From: Alphaproteobacteria bacterium | GTDB taxonomy: Bacteria > Pseudomonadota > Alphaproteobacteria > CAAHEQ01 > UBA3637 | Direction of reading: 5' to 3' | DNA: 32,986 nt | NCBI GenBank assembly: GCA_017394405.1 | Contig: JAFPYW010000056.1 | Span: forward strand, 1 to 32,986 | In this document: positions 9,872-31,829 of the stretch, piece by piece | Layout of the letters: each line of letters opens with the position of its first letter | Numbering within the stretch: position 1 is the stretch's first letter | Notes under the pieces: model-generated | Database searches by the model: none | What the model was told of the DNA's origin: nothing | What the model saw: only the letters and a program-made list of their open reading frames with translations | Made by a program: the position numbers and the translations under genes

Positions 9872-9907
9872 CGGGTCCGAAGAAATTCGGACTCGTTTTA
9901 TTTTATC
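9872..9907 (+). terminator. rpmG terminator, probably bidirectional
   Basis: Ten-base-pair stem (9872-9881 with 9886-9895, one G-T pair) closed by a GAAA tetraloop and followed by TTTTATTTTA. The convergent metallopeptidase gene ends just beyond it. Confidence 0.85.
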
Positions 9908-10572
9908 ATTTGAAGGGCTCGGCCATTTTTCTTCAACCATTTTTCTGCAACGCGCCGATGTGGTGTCAATTCATCCACTAACGCCCAAAAACGCACGCTG
10001 TGATTCATTTGTTTCAAGTGGGCAACTTCATGGGCGACCAAATAATCAATAACTTCCACCGGAGCAAAGGCAATTTTCCAACAAAAACTCAAATTTTTAG
10101 TGCTGGAACAACTGCCCCACCGAGATGAGGTGTTGCGCAATGTAATACGTCCTGCTTTGATACCCATTTTTGCCGTTAAATCCGCCACTTGTTTTTGAAT
10201 ATACGGCAACAATTTTTTTTGTCCATATGAACAAACACGGCGGTGGAAAAATTCGGCCTCACCGGATACCAGCAAAACACCTGCCTGTTCCCCCGTTTCT
10301 TTTCCCTGTTTTAATTTGTATTTTTTACCCATGATAGTGATGGTTTCGCCCGGTTCAAAAGCACGTGGCATCGGCCCATATTGAATATGAGCCCGAATCC
10401 ATGGTAATTGTTTTTTCGCAAAGGCCACAGCTAACATTTTAGGGCAAAACTTGGGACATGTTAAAACGATCTCCCCCCGTTGATTTTGCTTTAACAAAAT
10501 ATGATTAGCACGCGGATTTCTGTAAAATAAAACTTGAAAATTCCCGACTTTAATAGTTTCCTGACTTGACAT
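9898..10572 (-). CDS. YgjP-like (DUF45, M48-related) metallopeptidase
   Basis: 224-residue protein with the YgjP/DUF45 layout. The N-terminal beta-rich part contains RANHILLKQNQRGEIVLTCP and TITIMGKKYKLK. The conserved RWGSCSSTKNLSFCWKIAFA (151-170) leads to the zinc site HEVAH (181-185) with a third ligand in the H191-S-x-x-FW motif and the downstream helix that often ends this family. The HExxH motif predicts a zinc-dependent hydrolase, but no substrate is established for the family. AAGGG lies upstream of the start. It diverges from the small membrane protein gene. Confidence 0.92.
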   Translation of the reverse strand: MSSQETIKVGNFQVLFYRNPRANHILLKQNQRGEIVLTCPKFCPKMLAVAFAKKQLPWIRAHIQYGPMPRAFEPGETITIMGKKYKLKQGKETGEQAGVLLVSGEAEFFHRRVCSYGQKKLLPYIQKQVADLTAKMGIKAGRITLRNTSSRWGSCSSTKNLSFCWKIAFAPVEVIDYLVAHEVAHLKQMNHSVRFWALVDELTPHRRVAEKWLKKNGRALQMIK

Positions 10573-10627
10573 TATTACCCTTTTTTGTTATTGTTTGAGA
10601 ATATACAACAAGAAAGGGAAAATTTCA

Positions 10628-10885
10628 ATGGAGAAATTGTTTAAATTCATACATTTTATGCTCAGCGCTTTAATCAATGTGATGGCGGCCGTAGGTTTGG
10701 TCATTGTTTTGCTATGGTTGATTTGGGATGTTTCTCCACAACAAACCATTACGAAAACGGCTTATTTCTTTTCTGAAAGTTGGGCTTTAATAACAGGGCG
10801 GCAGCCAGATGATTCCACAAAAAATCTTGTCACACAACAACAATTAAACGATTCGGCCGAACATACGCATTATTTAGAAAAATAG
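10628..10885 (+). CDS. Small single-pass membrane protein of unknown function
   Basis: 85 residues. The start at 10628 is preferred over an upstream in-frame ATG at 10595 because AAGAAAGGGA (10611-10620) lies at the right distance. A hydrophobic segment covers about 12-37 (LSALINVMAAVGLVIVLLWL); the remainder is polar and ends QLNDSAEHTHYLEK. I do not recognise a family. It lies between the YgjP and SixA-like genes, with 68 bases before the latter, so the two could be cotranscribed. Confidence 0.6.
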   Translation: MEKLFKFIHFMLSALINVMAAVGLVIVLLWLIWDVSPQQTITKTAYFFSESWALITGRQPDDSTKNLVTQQQLNDSAEHTHYLEK

Positions 10886-10953
10886 AACGCGTTGCATTTT
10901 TAGAATATTCTGCCCATATTTTACACACCATTTAACAAAAGGGGGTGTTTCAT

Positions 10954-11445
10954 ATGGAATTACACAGATCATTATATATTTTAACTGCGGGGGAACCGGA
11001 TGAAACAGCACCGGTTTTGAACGAACTGAAACGCCCTTTATCGCGAAAGGGAGTCGCCCAGGTCTTGACATTGCTTGAACGAATAAAAGAAAAACCTTTT
11101 CCTTTACCAGATCTAATTTTATGTTCGCCCAGTTTATATGTCCGTCAGACGTTGGATCTATTACATGAGGTTTTGGGCAATATAGATACAACGTATAAAG
11201 ATGCCCTGTATTCAGCGCCAGATTATCGCATTTTGGATATTGTGCGATCATTAGATGACATTTTATCACATGTTATGATTTTGGGGGAATTACCGGGCTT
11301 AAATCAATTTATAAATTACGCATGCGAAGGATTAAAAAACAAAAAACTAAAACCGGCACAGGGCGTTTTGATTACCTTAAAAGACACGCAATCATGGCAT
11401 ACTTTTGGTCCGCAAAAAACCAAGTGCCGATCTTTATTCACCTAA
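10954..11445 (+). CDS. SixA-like histidine phosphatase homologue lacking its catalytic histidines
   Basis: 163 residues. The fold signatures of SixA-type phosphatases are in place: LYILTAGEPDE at the N-terminus, KRPLSRKGVAQ (26-36), PDLILCSPSLYVRQT (52-66), ALYSA (85-89) and VMILGELPGLNQFI (107-120). In active members the first motif is RHG or RHA and the last GHNPG. Here they read T11-A12-G13 and G111-E112-L-P-G, so both histidines are replaced while the arginine in CSPSLYVRQT is kept. It is therefore probably not a phosphatase and may bind a phosphohistidine partner or serve structurally. A GTG at 10945 is possible, but ATG 10954 behind AAAAGGGGG is better. It borders the phage-like cassette. 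Confidence 0.75.
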   Translation: MELHRSLYILTAGEPDETAPVLNELKRPLSRKGVAQVLTLLERIKEKPFPLPDLILCSPSLYVRQTLDLLHEVLGNIDTTYKDALYSAPDYRILDIVRSLDDILSHVMILGELPGLNQFINYACEGLKNKKLKPAQGVLITLKDTQSWHTFGPQKTKCRSLFT

Positions 11446-11471
11446 AACAAAATGAAAGGAAAGTTCTTTTT

Positions 11472-11651
11472 TTAGGCCGGTTTTGCATTACCGATATTTA
11501 ACGCAAATACGTTCAAACATGATTTTATTTTTCTCAACACATTATCATCTTTTGTTGTGGGTGTCAGCGCTGCTAATGCACTGGCGCCCGCAATAATGGA
11601 TGTAACGGCTGTCAAAATATCGTTAAAGTTTGTCATAATAAATTGAATCAT
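11472..11651 (-). CDS. Small phage-type protein (59 aa), last gene of the virion cassette
   Basis: 59 residues, starting MIQFIMTNFNDILTAVTSII and containing AGASALAALTPTTKDDNVLR, then FALNIGNAKPA. Short proteins with an alanine-rich hydrophobic stretch, a TPTTKDD-like turn and a C-terminal ALNxGxAK motif accompany lysis genes in many proteobacterial phages. Function is unproven; a holin-like or accessory membrane role is possible. GGAGG precedes the start by five bases. It follows the XhlA-like and endolysin genes. Confidence 0.65.
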   Translation of the reverse strand: MIQFIMTNFNDILTAVTSIIAGASALAALTPTTKDDNVLRKIKSCLNVFALNIGNAKPA

Positions 11652-11661
11652 TTTTCCTCCT

Positions 11662-11973
11662 TCATTTGAAAATCAAGTTTAACAATGCCACACAAATAGC
11701 CGTGGCGGTAGTAACCGAAATAGCCCCTAAAATTGTTTTTACTGGGGCTAATTCAGACCGGGCAACATAATCTTTTTTAATTTGATCATGTACCCGTTCG
11801 CAAACACTTTTTGTTTGAACACGACCGATAAAATTCATCAATTCGTCATGGACCGACAAAACATATTTGCTCAATGTATGCAATTCATTTTTAATGTCGC
11901 ACACCTCAGTCTGTAAATTGACAACTGAGGCCATCAATTTACCCATTTCTATATTCAAATTTTGCTGAACCAT
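11662..11973 (-). CDS. XhlA/holin-like phage membrane protein
   Basis: 103 residues from ATG 11973, which follows GAGGAGA; a longer in-frame reading to 12048 runs into the endolysin gene and is less likely. The N-terminal two thirds are a heptad-like helical region (MGKLMASVVNLQTEVCDIKN) and the C-terminus is one hydrophobic segment (LGAISVTTATAICVALLNLI). This coiled coil plus tail anchor resembles XhlA-type lysis proteins and some holins. Position directly after the endolysin supports a lysis role, but the family is inferred from topology only. Confidence 0.6.
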   Translation of the reverse strand: MVQQNLNIEMGKLMASVVNLQTEVCDIKNELHTLSKYVLSVHDELMNFIGRVQTKSVCERVHDQIKKDYVARSELAPVKTILGAISVTTATAICVALLNLIFK

Positions 11974-11984
11974 GTAATCTCTCC

Positions 11985-12392
11985 TCAATATAATGCGTAA
12001 AACACATGGTGACCTACTTCCGCGCTTGGAATAGCAACGCGCGCCCAATACGGATGAACCGATTTTGTGTGATAATGTGTTGCCCCTTTGGTATGATCAG
12101 GCAAAAAACCGGCAATAGCCCGTTTGGCGACACGCATACATATTTGATAGATTTTGTTATCTTTCAGATCTTGGTTTAACAAGGCACGATTAGGATCGTT
12201 GGGATTCCAACAAGAAAACTGAAAGGGCTTCAAACAAACCTCTTCTATTGTTTTTCCCCACCAAAACGATCCAATCCGTTCGGCGTGTTTTACACGATTG
12301 ATAATTACATTCGCAACGGCCTCTATTCCACTCAACGATTCGCCGCGCGCTTCACCAAATAATGTTTTGGCGAAAACTTCTAATTCTGTCAT
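11985..12392 (-). CDS. Phage endolysin, SleB/CwlJ-type cell wall hydrolase
   Basis: 135 residues from ATG 12392, which follows AAAAAGGAG; the longer reading to 12428 would overlap the terminase end. It matches the Hydrolase_2 family: LFGEARGES (11-19, with the presumed catalytic Glu), AVANVIINRVKH, FQFSCWNPNDPNRALL (58-73), GATHYHTKSVHPYWA and the GHHVFYALY end. Such enzymes cleave the glycan backbone of peptidoglycan. There is no signal peptide, so release would need a holin, consistent with the small membrane proteins downstream. It lies 15 bases after terL. Confidence 0.9.
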   Translation of the reverse strand: MTELEVFAKTLFGEARGESLSGIEAVANVIINRVKHAERIGSFWWGKTIEEVCLKPFQFSCWNPNDPNRALLNQDLKDNKIYQICMRVAKRAIAGFLPDHTKGATHYHTKSVHPYWARVAIPSAEVGHHVFYALY

Positions 12393-12406
12393 CCTAAAAC
12401 TCCTTT

Positions 12407-13831
12407 TTAATTTATATTTCCCTGCCATTTGGGCCTGTTCAGACGGACAAAGGCATTTCGTTTTAACCGCACCGGTTCAGCCAACAAACACCCGGCCACC
12501 GCATCCAAAGCGTCATCATGGCCCTTGGGGGCAAAGGGATGAAAGTCCTGTAATTCATCCAAAAAATTCGTCTGTTTAATGCTGGTATGAACAGATAAAG
12601 CCCCATTCATCAACGGCACTTCAAATGCAGACAAAATCCGGTTTTGCTTGCGTGTTCTGGCGATTTCTTCAATCACAGCACACCCCACTTTTGCGCGATT
12701 TAATTCCTGACGCAACAATGCCGGCAAAAACTTACCGATCCCATTTGTTTCCAAATGAATGGCTGGCAAATGATTTTCCTTGATAAAAGCTACCACTTCC
12801 CGACATTGATATCCTGCGGCTTCCACTTTTGGGGGCACCTTCAGGTATTTCAGGCGATGTAAATAGTAATGCCCTTCTGCGTCCGTAAAAACACAAGCAA
12901 TCACACTGCTATCCCCTTTGGCAGACCCGAATGCTGGATCCCACCAACAAGAAACCGATACCATTTGTGTGTCGCCAATTTTTAATGAGGCCGAATCGTT
13001 TGCCTCGTGGTATGTCAATTCATCCGAATAAAAGAGCAATCGTTTTACATCCAATCTGGCATCTGCACTTTGAATGGCCTTCAACATCATTTGGCTTTGG
13101 AATTTGAAACGTCCGGTACAACTTTTCATTTCCTCAATCTTTTTTAACGGGTATTTTTCAGGCCAATTTGATTCTCCATCCTTGTTTAACAAAGGGACTT
13201 TCATCACGGGCCAGTTTTTCAAAAAACCATCTTTGGTGTTATACAATGTATCTTGCGCATGCGGCGTACCCATATATAACATCATGCCATTTGGGGACAA
13301 GATATATTCCAAATCGGCCAATTTGCGCCGCAATTCACGCCGTTTAGCGGAAGTGTCACAGGTTTTGGGCACTTCCACATCGTCACAAATAATCACGTCA
13401 GCCCGACACCCGGTTAAATTAGATCCCAATCCTTTGGCCAAAACAGATGGATCGCGGCCTGTATCTGAACGGCGCACAGACAAACAATCTGACGCCCATT
13501 CTGACGGCTTGACGGGCTTCATATCTTGGCACAAAGGATGCGATGTTAAAATCCGTTTTATATGCTGTACCATTTTGCGGGCCAACATATAATCCGCCGC
13601 CACCACTAAAATGCGTAAATTCGGATGAAAACGCAATAACCAAGCGCAAAACAATCCCACTAATGTTGATTTACCAGATGCACGAAAAGCCATTAAAAGC
13701 CCCCGTTTGGGACCATGCCAAATGCGCTCCAAAAACCGGCAAATTCCCCGATGATGGCGGGGGAAATTCAAATGCAAACTGTGGTTCCAAAGCCACACGA
13801 ATTCATTCAAACGAATCGTCATCTGGGTCAT
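12407..13831 (-). CDS. Phage terminase large subunit
   Basis: 474-residue DNA-packaging motor. The ATPase half has Walker A FRASGKST (49-56) and Walker B VIICDDVE (146-153), with a coupling motif in YMGTPHAQD. The RNase H-like nuclease half has acidic residues in the expected positions: D298 (WWDPAFGSAKGDSS), E361 (HLETNGIGKF) and D439/D440 (GHDDALDAVAG). Length and motifs are intact. GGAGG precedes the start, which overlaps the preceding small gene by 29 bases. Terminase at the end of the cluster, behind the tail genes and ahead of the endolysin, follows the T7-like order. Confidence 0.95.
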   Translation of the reverse strand: MTQMTIRLNEFVWLWNHSLHLNFPRHHRGICRFLERIWHGPKRGLLMAFRASGKSTLVGLFCAWLLRFHPNLRILVVAADYMLARKMVQHIKRILTSHPLCQDMKPVKPSEWASDCLSVRRSDTGRDPSVLAKGLGSNLTGCRADVIICDDVEVPKTCDTSAKRRELRRKLADLEYILSPNGMMLYMGTPHAQDTLYNTKDGFLKNWPVMKVPLLNKDGESNWPEKYPLKKIEEMKSCTGRFKFQSQMMLKAIQSADARLDVKRLLFYSDELTYHEANDSASLKIGDTQMVSVSCWWDPAFGSAKGDSSVIACVFTDAEGHYYLHRLKYLKVPPKVEAAGYQCREVVAFIKENHLPAIHLETNGIGKFLPALLRQELNRAKVGCAVIEEIARTRKQNRILSAFEVPLMNGALSVHTSIKQTNFLDELQDFHPFAPKGHDDALDAVAGCLLAEPVRLKRNAFVRLNRPKWQGNIN

Positions 13832-14081
13832 TTTGAACCTCCATTTGTGCTTGTTTTAACAAGTCCATCAAAACATTTGCATCCGGACACACAGAAGTGC
13901 CTTCAATAATTTTTTTTATCATCAACAAATGTGCCAAAACGGCCTTACATGCGTTGTGATAAAGCATGAATGATTTAGCATCATCTGGGGCCGGTTGCTG
14001 ACAAAACTGGCGATAATCGGATATTGTTTTTTGTAAAAACTCCGACCAATTATCTGCGGAAAATACTGCTAAATCCACCAT
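13803..14081 (-). CDS. Small protein before terL, candidate small terminase subunit
   Basis: 92 residues, largely helical, beginning MVDLAVFSADNWSEFLQKTI and ending in an acidic tail (NDPDDDSFE). AGGAG precedes the start. No DNA-binding motif is obvious, and I do not recognise the family by sequence. Location immediately upstream of and overlapping terL, its size and its helical content fit a TerS-like role in podoviral packaging. This is an inference from context. Confidence 0.5.
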   Translation of the reverse strand: MVDLAVFSADNWSEFLQKTISDYRQFCQQPAPDDAKSFMLYHNACKAVLAHLLMIKKIIEGTSVCPDANVLMDLLKQAQMEVQNDPDDDSFE

Positions 14082-14089
14082 GTCTTCTC

Positions 14090-14560
14090 CTACTCACCGG
14101 AAGACATGCTGCTTAAACTCTTCGCGGTACTCAATAAAGACTGAGCTTGATTATTACGCAATTTTTCCAACGTCAGCAAATTCCGAGAATTTGTTTGTTT
14201 CAAACTATTATTCAGCTTTGACAACTTATATTGTTTTTGGGCAACTTGATATTTGTCTTCCATATCAAAATCTTTTTTCATTTGATCTAATACAACTTGT
14301 CCGGAACCGGATTTTGACGACAATCCGCTGGCGCCTAATTTGGCCTTATAAGTGGATTGTTGTTGAGCCAACAAATTTCTGTTTTTGCGTTGTTCTTCTT
14401 TGACAGACGATTCAATGTTTTGGCGTTCCAGTTGCGCCTGTTCAACGGCGGCTTGGTTTGCCTTTTTTGCGGCCTTTTTTTCGGCCTCAATACTTTTATG
14501 TGTAAAATATGCCGATCCCAAAACAGAAACGACATTTGCAACTGCTGCTGCGTGTGCCAT
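14090..14560 (-). CDS. Putative internal virion (core) protein
   Basis: 156 residues. A short Ala/Val-rich hydrophobic start (MAHAAAVANVVSVLGSAYFT) is followed by a long Lys/Glu/Gln/Ala-rich helix (about 25-75) and Ser/Asn/Gln-rich helices with SGLSSKSGSGQVVLDQM. This composition matches the small internal virion proteins of T7-like phages, which lie between tail tubular and packaging genes as here. The large gp15/gp16-type core proteins are absent. GGAGG precedes the start. Confidence 0.65.
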   Translation of the reverse strand: MAHAAAVANVVSVLGSAYFTHKSIEAEKKAAKKANQAAVEQAQLERQNIESSVKEEQRKNRNLLAQQQSTYKAKLGASGLSSKSGSGQVVLDQMKKDFDMEDKYQVAQKQYKLSKLNNSLKQTNSRNLLTLEKLRNNQAQSLLSTAKSLSSMSSGE

Positions 14561-14561
14561 T

Positions 14562-16487
14562 TTAACCTCCTAACTTTATATCACTTACGACAGACACCAA
14601 CCTGAATGGCTGAGGACTGGAGCCACGAATTTCCCACAAAGGACTTGTCGGACTGCGCATCCACCCCAAAGACCTCAAAACCAGATCTTTTGTTTTTTGC
14701 GTGGCGGGACTATCCAATTTATATGCTGCCAAATCTGGCACCATTTCCTGATGGACCCCCGTTCCCGTATCAATTTCCAATGATTGTGTATCAATTAAAC
14801 GAAAGACGGCACGCACCAAACGACAACTGGTCACTGGCGCATTACCATTATTTGCTGCGGCGGCCGGTGGCAAAGGAATCACTTGATGTGTAAAGGGCAG
14901 GCCTACTTCTATTTTTCTTGCATCGTGCAATAAAAACACACAGCCATTTTCCACCACTTGCGGATCCAACACGATGCCGTCCGTCGTCAAAGCAACCGTT
15001 TTTCCTTCCAAATGATCCAAATTTTCAATCATACTAACTGGGGTATCAGATGAAATCAAATGCCCGCTGTCTGTATGCAAATTTGGATCAAAACATTCCA
15101 ATGAATAGGCCTCGTCACGCTGAATCACGAAATAGGCCTTTTCACCCAAAAGAGCCACAGATAAAAATTGTCCGTCTGTTATTTGTTCCGTCCAACTTTG
15201 AATATCTTCAGATCTAAAACTGGTTAAAACAACCAATGATCCGTTGGACATCACCAAATAGGCCTGACGTTCATATTTGTCGTAGGCCATATCTAATGGG
15301 TGTTGTATCAAATGTTTGGACAACAACGAAATATCTCGGGCCTGATAGATACCTTCTAAATCCGAGAATAAAAATTCACGAATTTCACGGCCGTTTGCCC
15401 CTGCAAAAATAGTGGCACCATCTATACCTAATGGCGGCACATACAAATCCGTACGGCTGCCCACTTGGGTTTGACGTTTTAATTGAATATCGGCCGGTGT
15501 CAAAGGATCCCCCGATACCATCCATTCCGCACTGGCGGTAAAAACTTGTAAATGTCGGCCAGCAAATAATGCCGCAATATAATCAGATTGATCCGACAAA
15601 ATCTTAAATTCAATCGCTTCTGAATCATAACCCGATCCCTGTTCAAAATTCGTAATATCGCCGGTTTGACTAAACCACAAGGTGTTGGGTAAATCTCGGC
15701 TGCCACCAAAGACCAATCGGGATTGATAGGTACAAACCGTTCTGGGCCACCCATGAGCAGAACAAAAAGCCGGCTCCCCCCAACTGCGTGTCGGGTCCAA
15801 ACGTGTGTTGGCCCCCACACCATCCGCATCCAGTAATTTCTTTTTAACAACTGCCGTTGCGTGTGTGCTGTCTGTTACAGATTGAATCTGGGCATAGCCA
15901 TCACCTATTTTGAATTGTTGTCCCACATGACGATTTTCAAAAGTGGCGGCACTGGTTGTTAAAGTAACGGTACCGGAACACCCCGATGAAGATAAGGTTA
16001 CATCATCCCCTGCAAAACGAACATAGGGTTGATAAATGCAACCATCTTCCACCAAAAAGGCAAAGGAAACGATTTGCCATGTATTATTTGTATAAACCAA
16101 TTTTTGCGGTGCCACATCCGGATGAACAATCATAAAACCATCCGAAATTTGACACCAACATAATTGTCGGATTTGATCGTCAGTCCAAGGTGTTGTCAAT
16201 GTTGTTATCAAGACATCGTCTTGGAAAATTTTTGTCGCCTCATCTTGAATCAGCAACAAAAAATGTTGTGTTTTATTTGGTTCAAAAGCAATTAAACGCC
16301 CGAAATCTTCCACATCAGAAATGTACTTTAACCCCGAACGCCGATGAATACCACCGGTGGCTTCCAAAAACACATTTTTTAATGCAAAGGCCCCATTTTC
16401 ATAGGCGGTTAAATCAACACGGCCCAACAAATCTTGGGATAATTCGCCGGCCGAAAAATTTGTTTTACTTGTGAATAAATTTGTCAT
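14562..16487 (-). CDS. Tail tubular protein B-like protein (podovirus nozzle)
   Basis: 641 residues. The N-terminus (NFSAGELSQDLLGRVDLTAY, ALKNVFLEATGGIHRRSGLK) is characteristic of the large tail proteins of alphaproteobacterial podophages, which form the nozzle beneath the portal. Further typical stretches are WPRTVCTYQSRLVFGGSRDL, PNTLWFSQTGDITNFEQG and ATIFAGANGREIREFLFSDL. It is intact and of normal size. Its start overlaps the stop of the tail tubular A gene by four bases (ATGA), with GAGGTG upstream. No tail fibre gene follows it. Confidence 0.88.
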   Translation of the reverse strand: MTNLFTSKTNFSAGELSQDLLGRVDLTAYENGAFALKNVFLEATGGIHRRSGLKYISDVEDFGRLIAFEPNKTQHFLLLIQDEATKIFQDDVLITTLTTPWTDDQIRQLCWCQISDGFMIVHPDVAPQKLVYTNNTWQIVSFAFLVEDGCIYQPYVRFAGDDVTLSSSGCSGTVTLTTSAATFENRHVGQQFKIGDGYAQIQSVTDSTHATAVVKKKLLDADGVGANTRLDPTRSWGEPAFCSAHGWPRTVCTYQSRLVFGGSRDLPNTLWFSQTGDITNFEQGSGYDSEAIEFKILSDQSDYIAALFAGRHLQVFTASAEWMVSGDPLTPADIQLKRQTQVGSRTDLYVPPLGIDGATIFAGANGREIREFLFSDLEGIYQARDISLLSKHLIQHPLDMAYDKYERQAYLVMSNGSLVVLTSFRSEDIQSWTEQITDGQFLSVALLGEKAYFVIQRDEAYSLECFDPNLHTDSGHLISSDTPVSMIENLDHLEGKTVALTTDGIVLDPQVVENGCVFLLHDARKIEVGLPFTHQVIPLPPAAAANNGNAPVTSCRLVRAVFRLIDTQSLEIDTGTGVHQEMVPDLAAYKLDSPATQKTKDLVLRSLGWMRSPTSPLWEIRGSSPQPFRLVSVVSDIKLGG

Positions 16488-17053
16488 TGTCGCACCTCAA
16501 TCAACGAAAAATCTTGGAAACAAGACGGAATATCTTGTTGGCTATCTGTCAATTTAGCGGTCTTTAATTCTTCATCGGCGCGTTGATACATATAATCTGT
16601 TCGTGTTGTACTTTCCGTCAATGGCAAGGAAAATTCAGCAGCCAATCTGGCAATCAAGGCGTTACTGAAAAAAGGCGGAAAGGCATCTTCTTCCGGTCTG
16701 GCAATATACGAAATCATCACACGTTCTGCATTAGTTTGTAATGTATTATGGACAATTTTATATTGGATTCCCTGACTTTTTGTACCATATCCGGCCGACA
16801 AAACTCGCACACAATCATTGGGTAATTGATAGGCGTATTTATAATCTGCTGAAGGGGATGAAACCAATCTGGCCAATTCCACCTTGCCCAAAGCAAACCG
16901 CCAAGGATATGCAGACAACAAACTTTCCAATGTTGGTTCATATAATTGCGCACATACCTTCGCTTCTGCTGTTGCTTCATCAAAAGATGAAATTGCTTGA
17001 GCCCCCAACTTGACCAAAGCCCGTGAGCATAAATCAATTTTTGTATATGTCAT
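16484..17053 (-). CDS. Tail tubular protein A-like protein (podovirus adaptor)
   Basis: 189 residues from ATG 17053 behind GAAAGGA; the in-frame ATG at 17068 would lie inside the hairpin spacer. The N-terminal motif TKIDLCSRALVKLGAQAISS, then LYEPTLESLLSAYPWRFALG, YAYQLPNDCVRVLS and ALIARLAAEFSLPLTES, identify the T7 gp11-like adaptor connecting portal and nozzle. It is the first gene after the capsid and is preceded by a strong hairpin. Confidence 0.9.
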   Translation of the reverse strand: MTYTKIDLCSRALVKLGAQAISSFDEATAEAKVCAQLYEPTLESLLSAYPWRFALGKVELARLVSSPSADYKYAYQLPNDCVRVLSAGYGTKSQGIQYKIVHNTLQTNAERVMISYIARPEEDAFPPFFSNALIARLAAEFSLPLTESTTRTDYMYQRADEELKTAKLTDSQQDIPSCFQDFSLIEVRQ

Positions 17054-17070
17054 TGTGTTTCCTTTCAAAA

Positions 17071-17097
17071 AGAAGCCCCCTTGCGAACAAGGGGGCG
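17071..17097 (-). terminator. Hairpin between capsid and tail genes (attenuator or partial terminator)
   Basis: Perfect nine-base-pair stem (17075-17083 with 17088-17096). On the minus strand the loop is TTCG and TTCTTTTTG follows. It lies just after the capsid stop and before the tail ribosome site, so it may reduce tail gene expression relative to capsid or protect the capsid mRNA end. Confidence 0.65.
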
Positions 17098-17113
17098 GTT
17101 ATTTCCAGATGGA

Positions 17114-17983
17114 TTAGGTTGTTTCTGTTGCGGCTTCTGCGGCAGGCGGTATATCCAAACACACCATCTTCACCACACCATTATTGTCAATCAAGCAAGC
17201 CCCTTGGCTCATCATATTATTGACGTAATGAGCGGCATAATCACCATGCCACGTGATATCCGTTTTAATATCTTGACCTGCGGCCAAACCGACAGCAGAT
17301 TTGTGATAAATAAAACAGGTTGTTGTGGCACTGGAACCACTACCGGATGTTGGTAATCCGGTGTGCATGATCCAATTGATTCCCATCCATTTACGAGATT
17401 CGGAACCGGTCAGCATCGGATGTGCATCACCCACATAATTGGCATTGGAAAATTCTTCCAAACTGAGCAACTGATTCCATTGAGCAGGACCGACCAAGGC
17501 ATAACTTTCACCATCATCTGGCACGTTTTTGCTGTTCAATTTTTGGAAGGCCTCCAAAATACGTGCTTTGGTCAAAGCCTCGCTGGATGTACCGGCTGTA
17601 TTTGATGCCGTGGCCAAGGCGGTAATGATCAAATCATCTGTCTTTCGACCCAAAGCATAAGCGCCAGCCGTGGCCAACACTTTGCGTTCGTCATGACCGA
17701 CCTTTAATTCATCCAATTTATCCACCCATTGACCAGCATACCAGTCAGACAATTCACATTCCACAGGGGCATGTGTGACGGCAGATGGTGTCAATTGAGC
17801 ATTTCGGGCTGTTTTTTGGTTGGCAGATTGGGCACCAATCACTTGGAATGTTGTACTGGTTCCAGTAATACCATCCTTAAACCGCACGGTTTTCTTTAAT
17901 TTCGAGCCCTGTTGTTGATAGGCGTTATGTACTTCTGCTTCAAAATGTTTAACAAACGAAGCGTCAATAGCTGTTGATGTCAT
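17114..17983 (-). CDS. Major capsid protein (T7-like podovirus type)
   Basis: 289 residues. It starts TSTAIDASFVKHFEAEVHNA and carries the usual blocks of this capsid family: GTSTTFQVIGAQSANQKTAR, APVECELSDWYAGQWVDKLD, GRKTDDLIITALA, DGESYALVGPAQWNQLLSL and WMGINWIMHTGLP, ending near DITWHGDYAAHYVNN. Lysine and tryptophan blocks match HK97-fold capsids of podoviruses. AAAGGA precedes the start. The gene lies between two hairpins, one upstream with a T run and one downstream, and comes after the scaffold gene as expected. Confidence 0.92.
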   Translation of the reverse strand: MTSTAIDASFVKHFEAEVHNAYQQQGSKLKKTVRFKDGITGTSTTFQVIGAQSANQKTARNAQLTPSAVTHAPVECELSDWYAGQWVDKLDELKVGHDERKVLATAGAYALGRKTDDLIITALATASNTAGTSSEALTKARILEAFQKLNSKNVPDDGESYALVGPAQWNQLLSLEEFSNANYVGDAHPMLTGSESRKWMGINWIMHTGLPTSGSGSSATTTCFIYHKSAVGLAAGQDIKTDITWHGDYAAHYVNNMMSQGACLIDNNGVVKMVCLDIPPAAEAATETT

Positions 17984-18005
17984 AATATATCCTTTCTCTT
18001 ATGTT

Positions 18006-18037
18006 AAAAAAGCCAAGACAGAAAAATCCGTCTTGGC
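18006..18037 (-). terminator. Terminator-like hairpin upstream of the capsid gene
   Basis: Perfect eight-base-pair stem (18012-18019 with 18030-18037), ten-base loop, followed on the minus strand by TTTTTTAA. It lies between scaffold and capsid. A second weaker stem (ACTTTCC with GGGAAAGT) lies immediately before it. Confidence 0.7.
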
Positions 18038-18063
18038 GCCACTTTCCCTTTTTAAGAGGAAAG

Positions 18064-18714
18064 TTAGTCATACAGGCGTTTGAAGCCTGCTTCCACACGT
18101 TGGACCAATTCAGGGTCTTGATCTCGCCAATACTTTGGATCTTGCATCAATTGACGCAGGGTCTTTTCATCATCCAAAGGAGCAAATTGCCCTTTTCCTT
18201 GGATAAGCGGAGATTCCACTTTGCCCTGCATCATCTGATAAAGCGTCAAAATACCATTTTTTGTTTTGGCCAACGCATTAAAAGTGCTTTCATCTAAATT
18301 CTTTTCACCCCATTCTGAAATTTGACGAGCCAATTTATTAAATTGTTCTGGCCCACCAAAGGCCTGCTCCAGGCCCTGTAATTCTTGATCCGCAGCAATA
18401 TCATCCACCATATTTTCAATAATCGGTAAGACTTTGTCAGCGGCCAAATCATACACAACCTGGGCCTGCTCATTTGTGAAACCATGTTCAAACAAAATTT
18501 GATTGATTTCGGCATCGGGTTGAATCAATTCGTTTTTCATCGTCAATTGGTACGCATCCGCATTGGGCGGAACAACCTTTTTTTGATCATTTTCATGTGA
18601 TATTTTCGCGAGCAATTCCTGATACGCTGAAACCAACTCATTTACTTTCACATCCCCGTTTTCATCCAAAAATTCGGATGGGATTTGTATTTTTTCTGTT
18701 TGTTCTTCAACCAT
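18064..18714 (-). CDS. Capsid assembly scaffolding protein
   Basis: 216 residues, acidic and helical, resembling T7 gp9-type scaffolds: an N-terminal acidic region (IPSEFLDENGDVKVNELVSA), a central helical part (LEQAFGGPEQFNKLARQISEW, where GG-F-LA is a family-like motif) and a C-terminal capsid-interaction-like end (DPKYWRDQDPELVQRVEAGF). Its ribosome site AAAGGAG lies within the last codons of the portal gene, so the two are translationally linked. Confidence 0.85.
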   Translation of the reverse strand: MVEEQTEKIQIPSEFLDENGDVKVNELVSAYQELLAKISHENDQKKVVPPNADAYQLTMKNELIQPDAEINQILFEHGFTNEQAQVVYDLAADKVLPIIENMVDDIAADQELQGLEQAFGGPEQFNKLARQISEWGEKNLDESTFNALAKTKNGILTLYQMMQGKVESPLIQGKGQFAPLDDEKTLRQLMQDPKYWRDQDPELVQRVEAGFKRLYD

Positions 18715-18715
18715 T

Positions 18716-20215
18716 TTATTCTCCTTTGTTTGGTTGTTGTAACGGAATCAGGGGGGCATCCATTTCCGTCCTCATCAATGAGGCAGGAACATTCAATTTT
18801 TGTCCCAACCACTTCATAAAGGCGACAACATCCACCTGACTCAATGCTTCATTTCCAAATTTAGTGATCTCTGAAAGCCAAGTCAGCGCATTTTCAGCAT
18901 CTGTTTTGGCTTGCTTTTGTGCCCTGCCTGATTGATATGTAATTGTTAAATAATGACCATCTAAATAAATATCAGGCAACGCCCCACGTTTGCGCAACAA
19001 TGAGATGGCCCGATCAATCAGGGGCATCAACAATTCAGATTGCAACCGACCATATGTGGCACCCAACACCAAAATCATATCATCAGCACGTTCCATTACT
19101 TCGGTAGCAGTCATCGGATTTGCGGCGTCCAATTGCCCCAATTTATCACCCAACAAAGCGTGACGAATATGCTCGCGTAAATCTTTAATCACCAATTGAG
19201 AAACATCAAATTTACCTGGTGATTCCAACGCAGTCAGCCCCTTAGATCCAACCGCTTTTGGAATGATAGCCCCCGGGGTCAAACGGATATTGGCTGGATT
19301 CAAAACGCCATCATCCTCGGCCAACCAAATACCTGTGACGGCGATTGTGGCATTTTTAAGGATCAATTCCACAACCTTGTTTGCCGTTTTAATATCCGGC
19401 AATGCTTTCATCACAGGGGAACGGCCATAAACTTCCCCGGGTGCCTTCAGCCAGCGAAAAGCAATAAACGGAGAGGTATCGTAGCATGCTGTTTTTAACA
19501 CGATCGGTTCTCCATCATTGGGGACATACTGGCAATCTGGATTCAAAAAAGCCGTATAGGCAAAACTGCCATCCGGCATGGGTTCCACACACTCAATAAC
19601 ATCTAAATGGATATTTTCTTTTTCTGCTTTAATTAAAACATCTGGTGGTAAAACAAACTCACCAAAGCGGTCTATAAAACTGGGTACATCCATTTCAACA
19701 GATCTGAAAATATGGTCTAAACGTCCCGTTGTTCCTTCGGCTAAGCATAATTGTGACAATGGAACAGCCGTAAATTTGAACGCTGAAGCGGCACCGAATG
19801 GCGATTCTTCAAACATCAAACAAGCGGTTCCAACCGTAATCAAATCTAAATAGCACTGATGAATTTCCATCGCAAAATTACTGCGATCCAATTCGCCTTG
19901 AATGATTTGTGTCATCTTTTCCAAAGTCGGTGCCAAATCATTTTGTTCAGATTTAGATAATTCTGCACCGGCATTTAATTGAAACCAATTCATCCACGGT
20001 GGCGTCAATTGAGATAACATCAACGCCCCTAATTGATCCACTGCATCCGGGGCCGTTCCGTCATACAATTGTGTTGTTTTTGTGGCGTCTGTTCTGAAAA
20101 CAGATTCGCGTTGAGGAAAGGCATATTGATAACATTCTTGCCATGTCGGCTCCCATACGCTGCGTTCGGCCACCGCCTGCTGATACCGGCGATAGAGTTG
20201 TGAAATATGTGTCAT
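18716..20215 (-). CDS. Portal (head-to-tail connector) protein
   Basis: 499 residues from ATG 20215, which follows AAAGGAG; an in-frame reading to 20290 would cross the leader hairpin. It matches the podoviral Head-tail_con family: SVWEPTWQECYQYAFPQRES, DAVDQLGALMLSQLTPPWMN, WLKAPGEVYGRSPVMKALPD, NPMTATEVMERADDM and the glycine-rich region near LVLGATYGRL. The protein forms the dodecameric vertex ring through which DNA is packaged. It is intact. Its own strong promoter lies about 90 bases upstream, with an attenuator-like hairpin in the leader. Confidence 0.93.
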   Translation of the reverse strand: MTHISQLYRRYQQAVAERSVWEPTWQECYQYAFPQRESVFRTDATKTTQLYDGTAPDAVDQLGALMLSQLTPPWMNWFQLNAGAELSKSEQNDLAPTLEKMTQIIQGELDRSNFAMEIHQCYLDLITVGTACLMFEESPFGAASAFKFTAVPLSQLCLAEGTTGRLDHIFRSVEMDVPSFIDRFGEFVLPPDVLIKAEKENIHLDVIECVEPMPDGSFAYTAFLNPDCQYVPNDGEPIVLKTACYDTSPFIAFRWLKAPGEVYGRSPVMKALPDIKTANKVVELILKNATIAVTGIWLAEDDGVLNPANIRLTPGAIIPKAVGSKGLTALESPGKFDVSQLVIKDLREHIRHALLGDKLGQLDAANPMTATEVMERADDMILVLGATYGRLQSELLMPLIDRAISLLRKRGALPDIYLDGHYLTITYQSGRAQKQAKTDAENALTWLSEITKFGNEALSQVDVVAFMKWLGQKLNVPASLMRTEMDAPLIPLQQPNKGE

Positions 20216-20235
20216 AATAATTCTCCTTTTACAAT

Positions 20236-20274
20236 TAAAAATAGAAAAATCGCCCTTCAAATGAAGAGCGATTT
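20236..20274 (-). promoter_or_regulatory. Leader attenuator hairpin of the portal operon
   Basis: Thirteen-base-pair stem (20247-20259 with 20262-20274, one U-G pair on the minus strand) with a two-base loop, followed by TTTCTATTTTT. It lies between the portal promoter and the portal ribosome site, so most transcripts would be expected to stop here unless antiterminated. Confidence 0.65.
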
Positions 20275-20311
20275 CTTTCAATGGGTACACTTTTCCCCTT
20301 AACCGAATCGC

Positions 20312-20340
20312 ATTATATCACATTTTTAATCAAATGTCAA
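20312..20340 (-). promoter_or_regulatory. Near-consensus promoter of the virion operon
   Basis: Minus strand TTGACA (20335-20340), 17 bases, TATAAT (20312-20317): both hexamers are perfect and the spacing is optimal. The predicted start near 20305 leaves a leader of about 90 bases before portal. Confidence 0.8.
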
Positions 20341-20343
20341 GGA

Positions 20344-20736
20344 TTATTTTCCTTTTTTTGTTTTCAAATAGCAAAAAAGTTGATATGGCGTCCATAAATA
20401 CGGACGTTCTATTCCCAAAAATCTTTTCACAAACTCTACACATGTACAGGGGCGCAAACGGAATTGAACTTTCGTTGGAATATGCGGTGTTGTCCTAACC
20501 AATTGATACCCCTTATCCATGAACAACGCCTCAATATGGCGTGTTTTTATAACAATAAAGTCTGTATAATGGATCACCGGATCAATGATACACCATTCCC
20601 GACCATTGCCCAAAATAACAAAACAATGATAAAACCCTGTTTTCAAAAAATAAGTCCACCAATGGGTCGGACCACCACCAAAAGCAACCCACGCAAACGG
20701 ATATCTGTATCCAACAGATTGTGCCACACTAAACAT
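20344..20736 (-). CDS. Cassette protein with a possible permuted papain-like (YiiX/LRAT-type) fold
   Basis: 130 residues, aromatic- and cysteine-rich. A histidine in a hydrophobic strand (TGFYHCFVILGNGREW) comes first, then a strand (CIIDPVIHYTDF), and later a Cys-Val-Glu-Phe helix (CTCVEFVKRFLGI). The order His first, then Cys followed by E-F-V, matches circularly permuted NlpC/P60-like proteins such as YiiX; the fold is my inference. AAGGAGG precedes the start. It lies between the SOS-type promoter gene and portal. It might act on the cell envelope or as a regulator; the function is unknown. Confidence 0.55.
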   Translation of the reverse strand: MFSVAQSVGYRYPFAWVAFGGGPTHWWTYFLKTGFYHCFVILGNGREWCIIDPVIHYTDFIVIKTRHIEALFMDKGYQLVRTTPHIPTKVQFRLRPCTCVEFVKRFLGIERPYLWTPYQLFCYLKTKKGK

Positions 20737-20745
20737 CTTTCCTCC

Positions 20746-21102
20746 TTAGGTACCAACGATACCCTTTTGTTTCAAAATAGTTGTTAAAAAGCCCAGGGCC
20801 TCTTGCCATAACATACAAACTTTTGAACTGTCGCCGAAATGGGGATGTGGCGGCACCTGTTCAAAACCATATTTAGCCAAAACCTTAATATGCGCAGGCC
20901 GCAATTGTCCAATTTTTACCAATTTTTTAACTGCAATAATAATATCCGACAACTCGCATGGGCGAACAATTTTATGTTTTCGATTCGTTGAATGATTGGG
21001 CCCCATTTGTGTACATAAACAATACCAAAACCAGGCTTCTTCAGCAGACAAAAAAGGAACCATTTCTGATTCGTTTGAATTTATTAGGTCTTTATTCCGC
21101 AT
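20746..21102 (-). CDS. First gene of the cassette, unknown alphaproteobacterial-type protein
   Basis: 118 residues. The N-terminal part (AEEAWFWYCLCTQMG) and the helical C-terminal part (CELSDIIIAVKKLVKIGQLR, HIKVLAKYGFEQVPPHPHFG, MLWQEALGFLTTILKQKGIV) look like a conserved family I have seen beside virion genes in Rhodospirillales-type genomes, but I know no assigned function. The helix spacing could suit a small DNA-binding or late-activator protein. Strong ribosome site (AAGGAGGAG). It is transcribed from the promoter that carries the LexA box, so it is the most directly SOS-controlled gene. Confidence 0.6.
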   Translation of the reverse strand: MRNKDLINSNESEMVPFLSAEEAWFWYCLCTQMGPNHSTNRKHKIVRPCELSDIIIAVKKLVKIGQLRPAHIKVLAKYGFEQVPPHPHFGDSSKVCMLWQEALGFLTTILKQKGIVGT

Positions 21103-21128
21103 TTTCTCCTCCTTTTGGTAAAAAACGA

Positions 21129-21143
21129 GAACAAAATAGGAAC
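21129..21143 (-). promoter_or_regulatory. LexA (SOS) box of alphaproteobacterial type
   Basis: On the minus strand GTTC-N7-GTTC (GTTCCTATTTTGTTC), exactly the direct-repeat LexA operator known from alphaproteobacteria. It overlaps the -10 hexamer and the expected start of the cassette's first promoter, an ideal repressing position. Confidence 0.75.
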
Positions 21144-21169
21144 ATAGTGCAATTTTTTTTATTTGTCAA
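21141..21169 (-). promoter_or_regulatory. Promoter of the cassette's first two genes
   Basis: Minus strand TTGACA (21164-21169), 17 bases, TATGTT (21141-21146), about 40 bases before the 118-aa gene. Confidence 0.7.
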
Positions 21170-21193
21170 TATCATTTTATGAAAAAATTCCTA

Positions 21194-21222
21194 TTGACAT
21201 TCATCTTTTTTTATGTTAAAAA
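21194..21222 (+). promoter_or_regulatory. Promoter of the S24 repressor gene
   Basis: TTGACA (21194-21199), 17 bases, TAAAAA (21217-21222). TATTGACA here and TGTCAATA at 21164-21171 form an inverted repeat covering the -35 elements of the two diverging promoters. Confidence 0.55.
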
Positions 21223-21258
21223 GAAGATACAACCAAAAAGTGAAAGGAAATGTAAAAA

Positions 21259-21894
21259 ATGCAAATGTCTTATCATGAAATTTGGAACGGATTGGAACAA
21301 TTGGCCGCAGCTAAAGGACTATCTCTGTCCGGCTTGGCACAAAAAGCCGGCCTGGATCCGACCAGCTTTAATAAATCAAAACGAATCGGCGCTGATGGAC
21401 GAAAACGTTGGCCCTCAACAGAAAGCATGAACAAGGTTTTGAAGGCCACCAACACGACCGTATTTGAATTTATGGAATATGCGGGGCAACCCTTACCTGC
21501 GCCTCATTATACAATTCCTTTGTTGGGATTGGCAAAGGCCGGCCGCGATGGTTATTTTGATTCCGATGGATATCCATTATCCACCGCTGATTGGGATGGC
21601 ATAGATTTCCCGATGCAATTAGCCAAAGGAGTTTATGCCTTGGAAGTGTCTGGCGACAGTATGATTCCCGTTTATCGTGAAGGGGATAAATTGGTTGTTC
21701 AGCCTGATTCTGAAATCAGAGCACATGACCGAATCGTTGTAAAATTGGTCTCCGGGGAAGTGATGGTCAAAGAATTAAAACACAAAAGCGCAAAGCAAAT
21801 TACATTAAAATCGCTCAATCCTCAAAACGAAGACATTGTCTTACATCCGACCGATATTTTGTGGATGGCACGCGTTATTTGGGTCAGCCAATAG
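21259..21894 (+). CDS. XRE-family repressor with S24 self-cleaving domain
   Basis: 211 residues. The N-terminal helix-turn-helix (about 8-60) contains KGLSLSGLAQKAGLDPTSFN. The C-terminal peptidase S24 domain has a candidate Ala-Gly cleavage site in LAKAGRDG, the catalytic serine in VSGDSMIPVY and the catalytic lysine in RIVVKLVSGE, as in LexA and CI repressors. It is not LexA itself, because the DNA-binding part is XRE type rather than the LexA winged helix. Divergent orientation from the virion cassette across 156 bases suggests it represses the cassette and itself, with RecA-stimulated autocleavage after DNA damage. GAAAGGAAA precedes the start. Confidence 0.88.
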   Translation: MQMSYHEIWNGLEQLAAAKGLSLSGLAQKAGLDPTSFNKSKRIGADGRKRWPSTESMNKVLKATNTTVFEFMEYAGQPLPAPHYTIPLLGLAKAGRDGYFDSDGYPLSTADWDGIDFPMQLAKGVYALEVSGDSMIPVYREGDKLVVQPDSEIRAHDRIVVKLVSGEVMVKELKHKSAKQITLKSLNPQNEDIVLHPTDILWMARVIWVSQ

Positions 21895-30267: not shown

Positions 30268-30939
30268 TTAATTGATTTTTTTTATAATAAGATTCCTTAT
30301 TTCTGATATTTTTAATAATTCGTCTATAAAATAATTTACATTATCTTGTGTATCTAAATTTCTTTGTCGAACAATCTGTTGATAATTAAGATTTAAAATA
30401 CAACACAATTCTTTGCCCGTTAGAATATTTTTCATCTCAAATTGATTTTTAAATCCCTCTTTTATTTTACCCTTATCTGTCTGATTAAAACAACAAATAT
30501 AATACTCGGCTACAAATGGAATTTGAGATCCAAATTTTAAGGTAAATTCCTCAAGGTGTTCTCTTTCTGCCATTGATTTTTTAGTATCAAAATTATCACC
30601 ATCTTTTAATTCTATAATCTTACATATTCTTTTCTGTTGCACAATAAATATCAAAAGGTCAGGATCAATTTTTTCAATGGAATACCTACTTTTCTTTAAA
30701 ATTTTTTTCTGACACACATATACTCCATTTGGCTGTTGTCCCTCGACAACGTTATTAATAAATTTTTCCAAATTATCAATATTATTTGTTTTGGATAAAA
30801 TAATACGTTCAAGTTCTGACCCATTTGAAATAACTGTTGCCTGAATTTTTGAAATTAATTGTCCCAAGGAGAAATTTCCCAACACTCGAACATATCCACT
30901 ATTTTCATCCTGTCGGCCTTTTGCGTCTGATATTTTCAT
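30268..30939 (-). CDS. Predicted type II restriction endonuclease (PD-(D/E)XK)
   Basis: 223 residues, visibly AT-richer in codon use than the surrounding genes. It opens MKISDAKGRQDENSGYVRVL and contains DPDLLIFIVQQKRICKIIELK. There D (about residue 119) followed by E-L-K fits the PD-(D/E)XK nuclease core, with the K-x-G-D-N-F-D-T-K-K-S stretch after it. It overlaps the methyltransferase stop by four bases (ATGA), the usual coupling of methylase and nuclease. Recognition sequence unknown. The assignment rests on the motif plus the neighbour. Confidence 0.75.
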   Translation of the reverse strand: MKISDAKGRQDENSGYVRVLGNFSLGQLISKIQATVISNGSELERIILSKTNNIDNLEKFINNVVEGQQPNGVYVCQKKILKKSRYSIEKIDPDLLIFIVQQKRICKIIELKDGDNFDTKKSMAEREHLEEFTLKFGSQIPFVAEYYICCFNQTDKGKIKEGFKNQFEMKNILTGKELCCILNLNYQQIVRQRNLDTQDNVNYFIDELLKISEIRNLIIKKIN

Positions 30940-31619
30940 ACGATATCCTCTCCATATTCTATGTCTCCACCTATAAAATTACGTTTTGTATCCTGTGTTG
31001 CCCTTAAAACAGAATATCCTCCTGCCGCTGGATCTACCACGAAATCATTTTCCTCTGTTACCGCTAAAATAAGATTTTTTTGTAGTTCTATTGGTTTCGC
31101 GTGAGTATGATTTTTAACCACCCGTTCTTCCCAAACATCTGGTATATCGTGTCGTTTCCAAGTATTTTTCGCTATTTGGGGGCGTTTTTGTATGACAATA
31201 CAATATTCGCTTTTTCGACGTGTTCTATATCCCATACCTATTCTTAATTTATTCCATGTAATCATGTCAACTGCGGATAGTGAGGGAATATTTTTAAACC
31301 ATTTTTGTATCCCCTCTACTAAATGAAACTTATCAACCCACAAGAACAAATATCCAGACGGAACTAAAACACGGTTAATTTCCAATAAAAATTTATGTAT
31401 TATTATTTCATCCATTTGAGGCAGTGCACTTCTCAATTTTCCGCGCAATTTTCCCTCGTTTCCATACTTTAATTTGTCCAATACTCCCCTGTATTGTGGA
31501 TCAAAAAACACAGCCTTGATTGCTCTGTTTGGTATTTTTTTTAGCAAAAAAACACCATCACATTTATTTTTGTAATTAATTTTTAACGGACCAATCCCTT
31601 CTCCATTAAATATTTTCAT
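30936..31619 (-). CDS. DNA methyltransferase (amino-methylating, beta-class order), type II R-M
   Basis: 227 residues from ATG 31619; an in-frame GTG at 31685 would lie before the RNA terminator and is not preferred, though the ribosome site of 31619 is weak. Motif IV comes first as FFDPQYRGVLDKLKYGNEGK (DPPY-like), then SGYLFLWVDKF. Near the C-terminus are THAKPIELQKNLILAV and VVDPAAGGYSVLRAT (motif I, SAM binding). IV before I is the beta-class order of N6-adenine or N4-cytosine enzymes. With the downstream nuclease it forms a restriction-modification pair. AT-rich codon use and flanking repeats indicate recent acquisition. Confidence 0.85.
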   Translation of the reverse strand: MKIFNGEGIGPLKINYKNKCDGVFLLKKIPNRAIKAVFFDPQYRGVLDKLKYGNEGKLRGKLRSALPQMDEIIIHKFLLEINRVLVPSGYLFLWVDKFHLVEGIQKWFKNIPSLSAVDMITWNKLRIGMGYRTRRKSEYCIVIQKRPQIAKNTWKRHDIPDVWEERVVKNHTHAKPIELQKNLILAVTEENDFVVDPAAGGYSVLRATQDTKRNFIGGDIEYGEDIV

Positions 31620-31633
31620 TCCATACTTACCCC

Positions 31634-31664
31634 AAAAAAATATCGCCTGTGGTGCTTCAGGCGA
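31634..31664 (-). terminator. Intrinsic terminator of the structured RNA, upstream of the methyltransferase
   Basis: Seven-base-pair stem (31643-31649 with 31658-31664), eight-base loop, then TATTTTTTT on the minus strand. It ends just before the methyltransferase start. Confidence 0.75.
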
Positions 31665-31829
31665 CTGGAAGTTAGTACCTATCACATAGAATAGTGCGGT
31701 CTATTGACCGAAAACGGCTTATTCAACCGCCTTCCAGTCTTAAACTAGAAGGCTAAGTTTTTCCGTAGAAAGTGCATCTACAACTATGTGTGAGGGTACT
31801 AATCCTCGGGGCAGACACCACCCTGCCTT
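31634..31829 (-). ncRNA. Putative structured RNA (about 195 nt) ahead of the R-M genes
   Basis: A consensus-like promoter, a densely folded stretch and an intrinsic terminator follow one another without a credible reading frame. Hairpins, in minus-strand order: 31810-31827 (GGCAG/CTGCC), 31792-31807 (GAGG/CCTC), 31765-31781 (GTAGA/TCTAC), 31729-31753 (GCCTTC/GAAGGC with an inner AGT/ACT), 31715-31729 (CGG/CCG plus TT/AA), 31697-31710 (CGGTC/GACCG) and the terminator. The sequence could be a free RNA or a leader that controls the methyltransferase by attenuation. The layout recalls HEARO/OMEGA-type RNAs, but no IscB gene is present and I cannot confirm membership. Confidence 0.6.

Follow-up and report, generated by a model that had tools for sequence, protein, structure and literature searches.

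A podovirus-type gene cassette with a LexA box in very small alphaproteobacterial genomes: probably an ancient, domesticated gene transfer agent

What is a set of intact phage particle genes doing in a bacterial chromosome when no gene for replication or integration accompanies it? The question is raised by positions 11472-21894 of the window analysed here, a stretch of 32,986 nucleotides that makes up an entire contig (JAFPYW010000056.1, our C31) of the draft genome of a rumen alphaproteobacterium (GCA_017394405.1; 1.04 Mb in 73 contigs, about 81% complete). The cassette comprises 14 genes, all intact and tightly packed, of which 13 are read from the minus strand and the remaining one, divergent, encodes a repressor; it lies between a sixA-like gene on one side and a ppiA-like gene on the other. 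An initial annotation had offered three options, a domesticated gene transfer agent (GTA), a phage satellite or a reduced prophage; the first is favoured by single copy, by gene order, by purifying selection and by the agreement of cassette and host trees. We thus read the cassette, with a probability of about 0.84, as the head, packaging, tail and lysis operon of an ancient, domesticated, podovirus-derived GTA, most likely making particles by which the bacterium passes its own DNA from cell to cell; host-DNA packaging and transfer are predicted steps. A GTA is the best explanation because an intact packaging machine, without replication or integration genes, tracks its host throughout an order.

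GTAs (viriforms) have intact particle genes derived from caudoviricetes, are transmitted vertically and neither replicate nor integrate autonomously; they package mainly host DNA, with at best part of their own genes, are made by a small subpopulation of cells, and often, though not always, have their genes at two or more loci (PMC9662315). Intact particle genes, vertical transmission, the absence of replication and integration genes and a spread over more than one locus are all found for the cassette; the integrase and attachment (att) sites of a temperate prophage are not.

Packaging and particle genes

Open reading frames and profile matches bear out the view that the virion, packaging and lysis genes are intact. 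The packaging motor is a large terminase subunit of T7 type (TerL, 12407-13831; NF033889 termin_lrg_T7, E 5.9e-110), whose Walker A motif GKST, acidic pair D150-D151 and nuclease residues D298, D439 and D440 are invariant across 25 sequences. The 92-residue product of 13803-14081 is a candidate small terminase subunit (TerS) by its position ahead of terL and by alignment A4; its AlphaFold model is all-helical (pLDDT 76) and has no recognisable DNA-binding domain, and an identity by VIA-align was rejected, as only common helical arrangements were returned. These two proteins bear on the idea that the domesticated particle has lost DNA packaging and plays another role, as a lysis device or a protein carrier. 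Host-DNA packaging is indeed a prediction from genes, and the candidate TerS is short (92 to about 95 residues), but the invariant Walker A, acidic and nuclease residues of TerL, together with purifying selection, make such a role improbable. The shortness of TerS had itself been considered as a hallmark of GTAs, and was dropped since the TerS of T7 is about equally short.

The head is encoded by a portal or head-tail connector (18716-20212; PF12236, E 2.9e-124), present as a single copy in each carrier among the relatives, a scaffold protein (18064-18714; PF05396, E 3.6e-11) and a major capsid protein (17114-17983; PF19821, E 7e-71; phrog_3437); the tail by tube proteins A (16484-17053; phrog_394, E 1.8e-50) and B (14562-16487; phrog_376, E 1.6e-119), followed by an internal virion protein resembling T7 gp14 (14090-14560; phrog_418, E 2e-5; PF24072, E 4e-4, under the cut-off). 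Lysis is represented by an endolysin, a cell-wall hydrolase (11985-12428; PF07486, E 1.9e-20; phrog_938), and by a small protein with a hydrophobic C-terminus (11662-11970), which adjoins the endolysin in 23 loci and has zero matches in family searches; its position suggests a holin. In one relative the endolysin gene is followed by a gene (L106:20546-21097) that matches PF11351 GTA_holin_3TM (E 3e-11). The last gene of the operon (11472-11636) encodes a conserved protein of about 54 residues, with homologues at the corresponding position of 19 family loci.

No integrase, replication or RNA polymerase gene was found among the cassette genes, either as open reading frames or by Pfam, PHROGs and NCBIfam profiles, in agreement with the initial annotation; integrase matches (PF00589) fall only outside the cassettes; the closest, in genome G025, is separated from the cassette by about 3 kb and is probably a host Xer. 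It was likewise correct that no att-like repeat flanks the locus, the longest direct repeat between the flanks being 10 bp, which is chance level. The window contains no tRNA, and the GC and third-position GC (GC3) contents of the cassette resemble those of the neighbouring host genes.

The tail fibre had been described as missing, which holds for the window, but the genome has a candidate at another place. Rhodospirillales relatives, among them L106 and L095, encode a fibre whose N-terminal domain is of T7 type between the tail tube or gp14 gene and terS; used as a query, this fibre finds one homologue in the genome of the window, on contig C5 (4333-5331), followed by a gene for 100 residues (L338:4333-5633). 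PF03906 supports the fibre domain weakly (E 3e-4, under the cut-off), and the C-terminal part varies, so that the whole protein ranges from about 330 to 630 residues between species. This homologue is single-copy and lies outside the cassette in 16 of the 20 family genomes tested. With its fibre at a separate locus the element probably has a divided genome, as do RcGTA and FpGTA, and the particles may use this fibre.

Distribution and descent

The cassette was followed through a genus set of 11 genomes, a family set of 43 (the whole order, as represented in the set) and a class sample of 289; many of the related records are of rumen and gut origin. All 11 genus genomes and 28 of the 43 family genomes have the portal exactly once, and 43 genomes of the class sample have a close relative of it, again in one copy each. 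The 15 family genomes that lack the cassette (genera g2, g4, g6 and g10, and genome G027) are nested among carriers, and the absences thus look like losses. A more distant portal (E about 1e-130) occurs in single copy in G104 and G203, two 0.9-Mb genomes of one genus.

Nearly all family loci that cover the whole cassette agree in gene order, and neighbours are shared within sub-clades: ygjP and sixA in the group of the window; the atp operon in G007, G029, G033 and G026; lnt or its helix-turn-helix (HTH) neighbour in several genera; and pilB/pilC-like genes in G001, G004, G006, G008 and G009. In five deep Rhodospirillales lineages the repressor adjoins a class I lysyl-tRNA synthetase (LysK, an assignment made by eye from the sequence). 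Relative to ppiA and mtaB, the block of ygjP, sixA and cassette (9898-21894, compared with L032) has opposite orientations in G002 and in the window, which points to rearrangement of the host chromosome, not to movement of a phage. The occurrence of the cassette at different sites, named beforehand as an outcome that would speak against a domesticated element, is thus literally observed, but each site is common to a sub-clade and the changes look like host rearrangements.

Descent was compared between trees of cassette proteins (nine for the family, six for the wider set) and a host tree of GyrA. In the family, 18 of 25 splits are common to both, where shuffled labels give a mean of 0.2 and a maximum of 3, and distances correlate with r 0.91; for 42 taxa that include Magnetospirillum, Caenispirillum, Haematospirillum, Telmatospirillum and CAG-239, 27 of 39 splits are common (shuffled maximum 3; r 0.84). 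The ratio of nonsynonymous to synonymous substitution (dN/dS) lies mostly between 0.02 and 0.2, synonymous sites being saturated in distant pairs, and terL is under purifying selection. The proposed check by vertical inheritance and dN/dS therefore came out in favour of domestication.

These results bear on the two other options. A recent temperate podovirus prophage that has lost its integration and replication genes by deletion and is on its way out would account for the phage origin of every gene, for the 15 cassette-free family genomes and for the broken frames of one locus (L069); yet decay would yield different deletions in different genomes, whereas the same reduced set stays intact across many genera and beyond, with low dN/dS and trees that track the hosts, so that this origin is very unlikely. 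A phage satellite, or a minimal mobile element, packaging its own 10 kb and relying on a helper for replication or integration, would fit the size of about 10 kb, the capsid and terminase genes, the SOS control and the differing sites of sub-clades, but is just as unlikely, given that integrase and att sites were not found, that each carrier has exactly one copy, that site changes look like host rearrangement and that co-divergence is order-wide. Plasmid carriage was rejected as well: plasmid records held no close relative, the only portals among them being distant ones from Acinetobacter and Klebsiella.

Elsewhere in the window, a pair of low-GC genes (0.27 and 0.36) between ssb and groEL (30268-31685) reads as a DNA methyltransferase gene with a possible restriction enzyme gene next to it, and seems to be a restriction-modification unit of recent acquisition.

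The divergent promoter and its first genes

The cassette promoter region contains GTTCCTATTTTGTTC (GAAC-N7-GAAC; 21129-21143, minus strand), about 26 bases ahead of the first operon gene; its GTTC-N7-GTTC form is what we take to be the known alphaproteobacterial LexA box. The mean chance expectation for such a box in the window is 0.72. The more specific pattern GTTCN4TTTGTTC occurs five times in the whole draft genome, at lexA, recA, ruvA (ruvAB), the cassette promoter and within recN, and its backward control not at all. Such LexA sites are present in 11/11 genus genomes, and the exact box in the cassette promoter in 20 of 27 family-set loci. The LexA regulon of these very small genomes appears to consist of little more than lexA, recA, ruvAB and the cassette, which is apparently under direct SOS control. 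The initial annotation had proposed control by a LexA box and an S24 repressor; the box is real, has the form of those at lexA, recA and ruvAB, and is conserved in relatives.

The divergent gene (21259-21894, plus strand) encodes the S24-type repressor (PF00717, E 9e-22; HTH match weak), with an Ala-Gly site and the pair Ser134/Lys171; most relatives keep both site and pair, the pair being counted by alignment. Two cultured, non-pathogenic carriers, Caenispirillum salinarum AK4 and Magnetospirillum aberrantis, have the box as well as the pair. Genus g5, G016, G054, Haematospirillum and the CAG-239 group have lost the pair, and the box is absent in 17 of 18 loci without the pair, against 19 of 57 with it (Fisher 4e-6, not corrected for phylogeny); as the losses coincide, both inputs from DNA damage seem to vanish together. 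Six CAG-239-type loci (L099, L108, L112, L117, L138 and L139) have terS, terL and the lysin gene relocated in front of the portal, and show no LexA box, no Ser/Lys pair in the repressor and no fibre in the cassette.

The products of the first two operon genes, 20746-21102 and 20344-20736, have no significant match in Pfam, PHROGs or NCBIfam, and the first, conserved at this place, has zero matches in phage records. Its model (pLDDT 85) has five structures of the phage-21 Q protein as top rows in VIA-align (Z 6.1-7.6), followed by sigma region 4; because structural Z below 8 can reflect a common arrangement, the likeness to a Q-type antiterminator is only suggestive. Foldseek against the PDB gave no match below 0.001 for this model or that of TerS. 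The GTA of Caulobacter is also reported to be controlled by antitermination (PMC11150451). The second protein has invariant His, Asp and Cys residues (H37, D52 and C99) and is possibly a permuted papain-like peptidase; in 32-kb Vibrio podophages its homologue sits between terL and the portal gene.

In an undamaged cell, LexA at its box and the S24 repressor would keep the divergent promoter shut. On DNA damage, activated RecA would lead to clearance of LexA and to self-cleavage of the repressor; the first gene product, possibly by antitermination, would then allow transcription through the 9.6-kb operon. T7-type capsids with short tails would assemble, using the fibre encoded elsewhere in the chromosome, TerL and TerS would load host DNA into the heads, and lysis would be brought about by the endolysin together with the holin-like protein.

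Known systems and the place of the cassette

Several points weigh against a GTA. The particles, their DNA and its transfer are predicted from gene content; the box by itself is due about once per 33 kb by chance; no equivalents of T7 gp15 or gp16 were seen in the cassette loci examined; and four of the 20 family genomes tested, all four of them cassette carriers, gave no fibre match. The family genomes are draft metagenome-assembled genomes (MAGs), the host tree is that of a single gene, and the cassette and GyrA trees conflict in places, for example over how the sub-clades of the genus are ordered. In UBA7488 (L069), terL falls into three parts and the first operon gene into two, by decay or by faulty assembly. 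In L040 of G004, a MAG 59% complete, the tail tube B gene is split over two open reading frames.

The closest known design, by description and without comparison of proteins, is FpGTA of Faecalibacterium (PMC12946183, Nat Commun 2026), which is also podovirus-like, has an operon I of about 10.5 kb with TerS, TerL, portal, scaffold and capsid genes, present in 12/12 Faecalibacterium genomes examined, and keeps its fibre at a separate locus. In contrast to the cassette, its host is Gram-positive, its lysis genes lie in the second operon instead of belonging to the main one, the paper makes no mention of LexA, and the particles of FpGTA and their packaged DNA of 8.4-8.9 kb have been shown, where the cassette is known from its genes.

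RcGTA-like agents (type I, Rhodogtaviriformidae) share with the cassette an alphaproteobacterial host and genes over more than one locus. They are siphovirus-type, whereas the portal, capsid, scaffold and terminase families of the cassette are T7-type and a siphovirus head-tail set is not found, which indicates separate domestication. RcGTA-like agents have mostly been inherited vertically for hundreds of millions of years (PMC10883770), and a LexA site is predicted at the GTA promoter of Dinoroseobacter (PMC6473078); particles of Azospirillum lipoferum with random 10-kb DNA have been attributed to RcGTA-like genes (PMC3899980). BhGTA/VSH-1 of Brachyspira, alike by description and from an unrelated host, is induced by DNA-damaging agents (PMC9662315), and is reported to have a divided genome (Stanton 2009, cited in PMC3899980). 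Among free phages, the nearest complete one found is Pelagibacter phage EXVC031P Hodr (capsid 42%, portal 35% identical), which has many other genes in a 34-kb genome; the 32-kb Vibrio podophages, such as 1.138.O (capsid about 30% identical), have large genes after gp14 (about 713, 1057 and 833 residues) that the cassette lacks.

No earlier report of such a cassette was found in open-licence PMC papers. A scan of IMG/VR returned 451 portal relatives, and it is probable that many cassettes of this kind are on record as small prophages. We consider it likely that the cassettes form an independent podovirus GTA lineage, as old as the order, in Rhodospirillales and gut Alphaproteobacteria, belonging to the LexA regulon, with an unlinked fibre, and rewired away from SOS in several branches where the box and the self-cleavage residues are both lost. 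Recognised groups of independently domesticated GTAs are few, with FpGTA of the Firmicutes (2026) as the one podovirus-like case; if true, the cassette would be a second podovirus GTA lineage, in Alphaproteobacteria and apparently order-old, and short-tailed phages would have been domesticated repeatedly. It would also mean that DNA damage and gene transfer are directly linked in very small genomes, and would offer cultured hosts such as Magnetospirillum for experiments.

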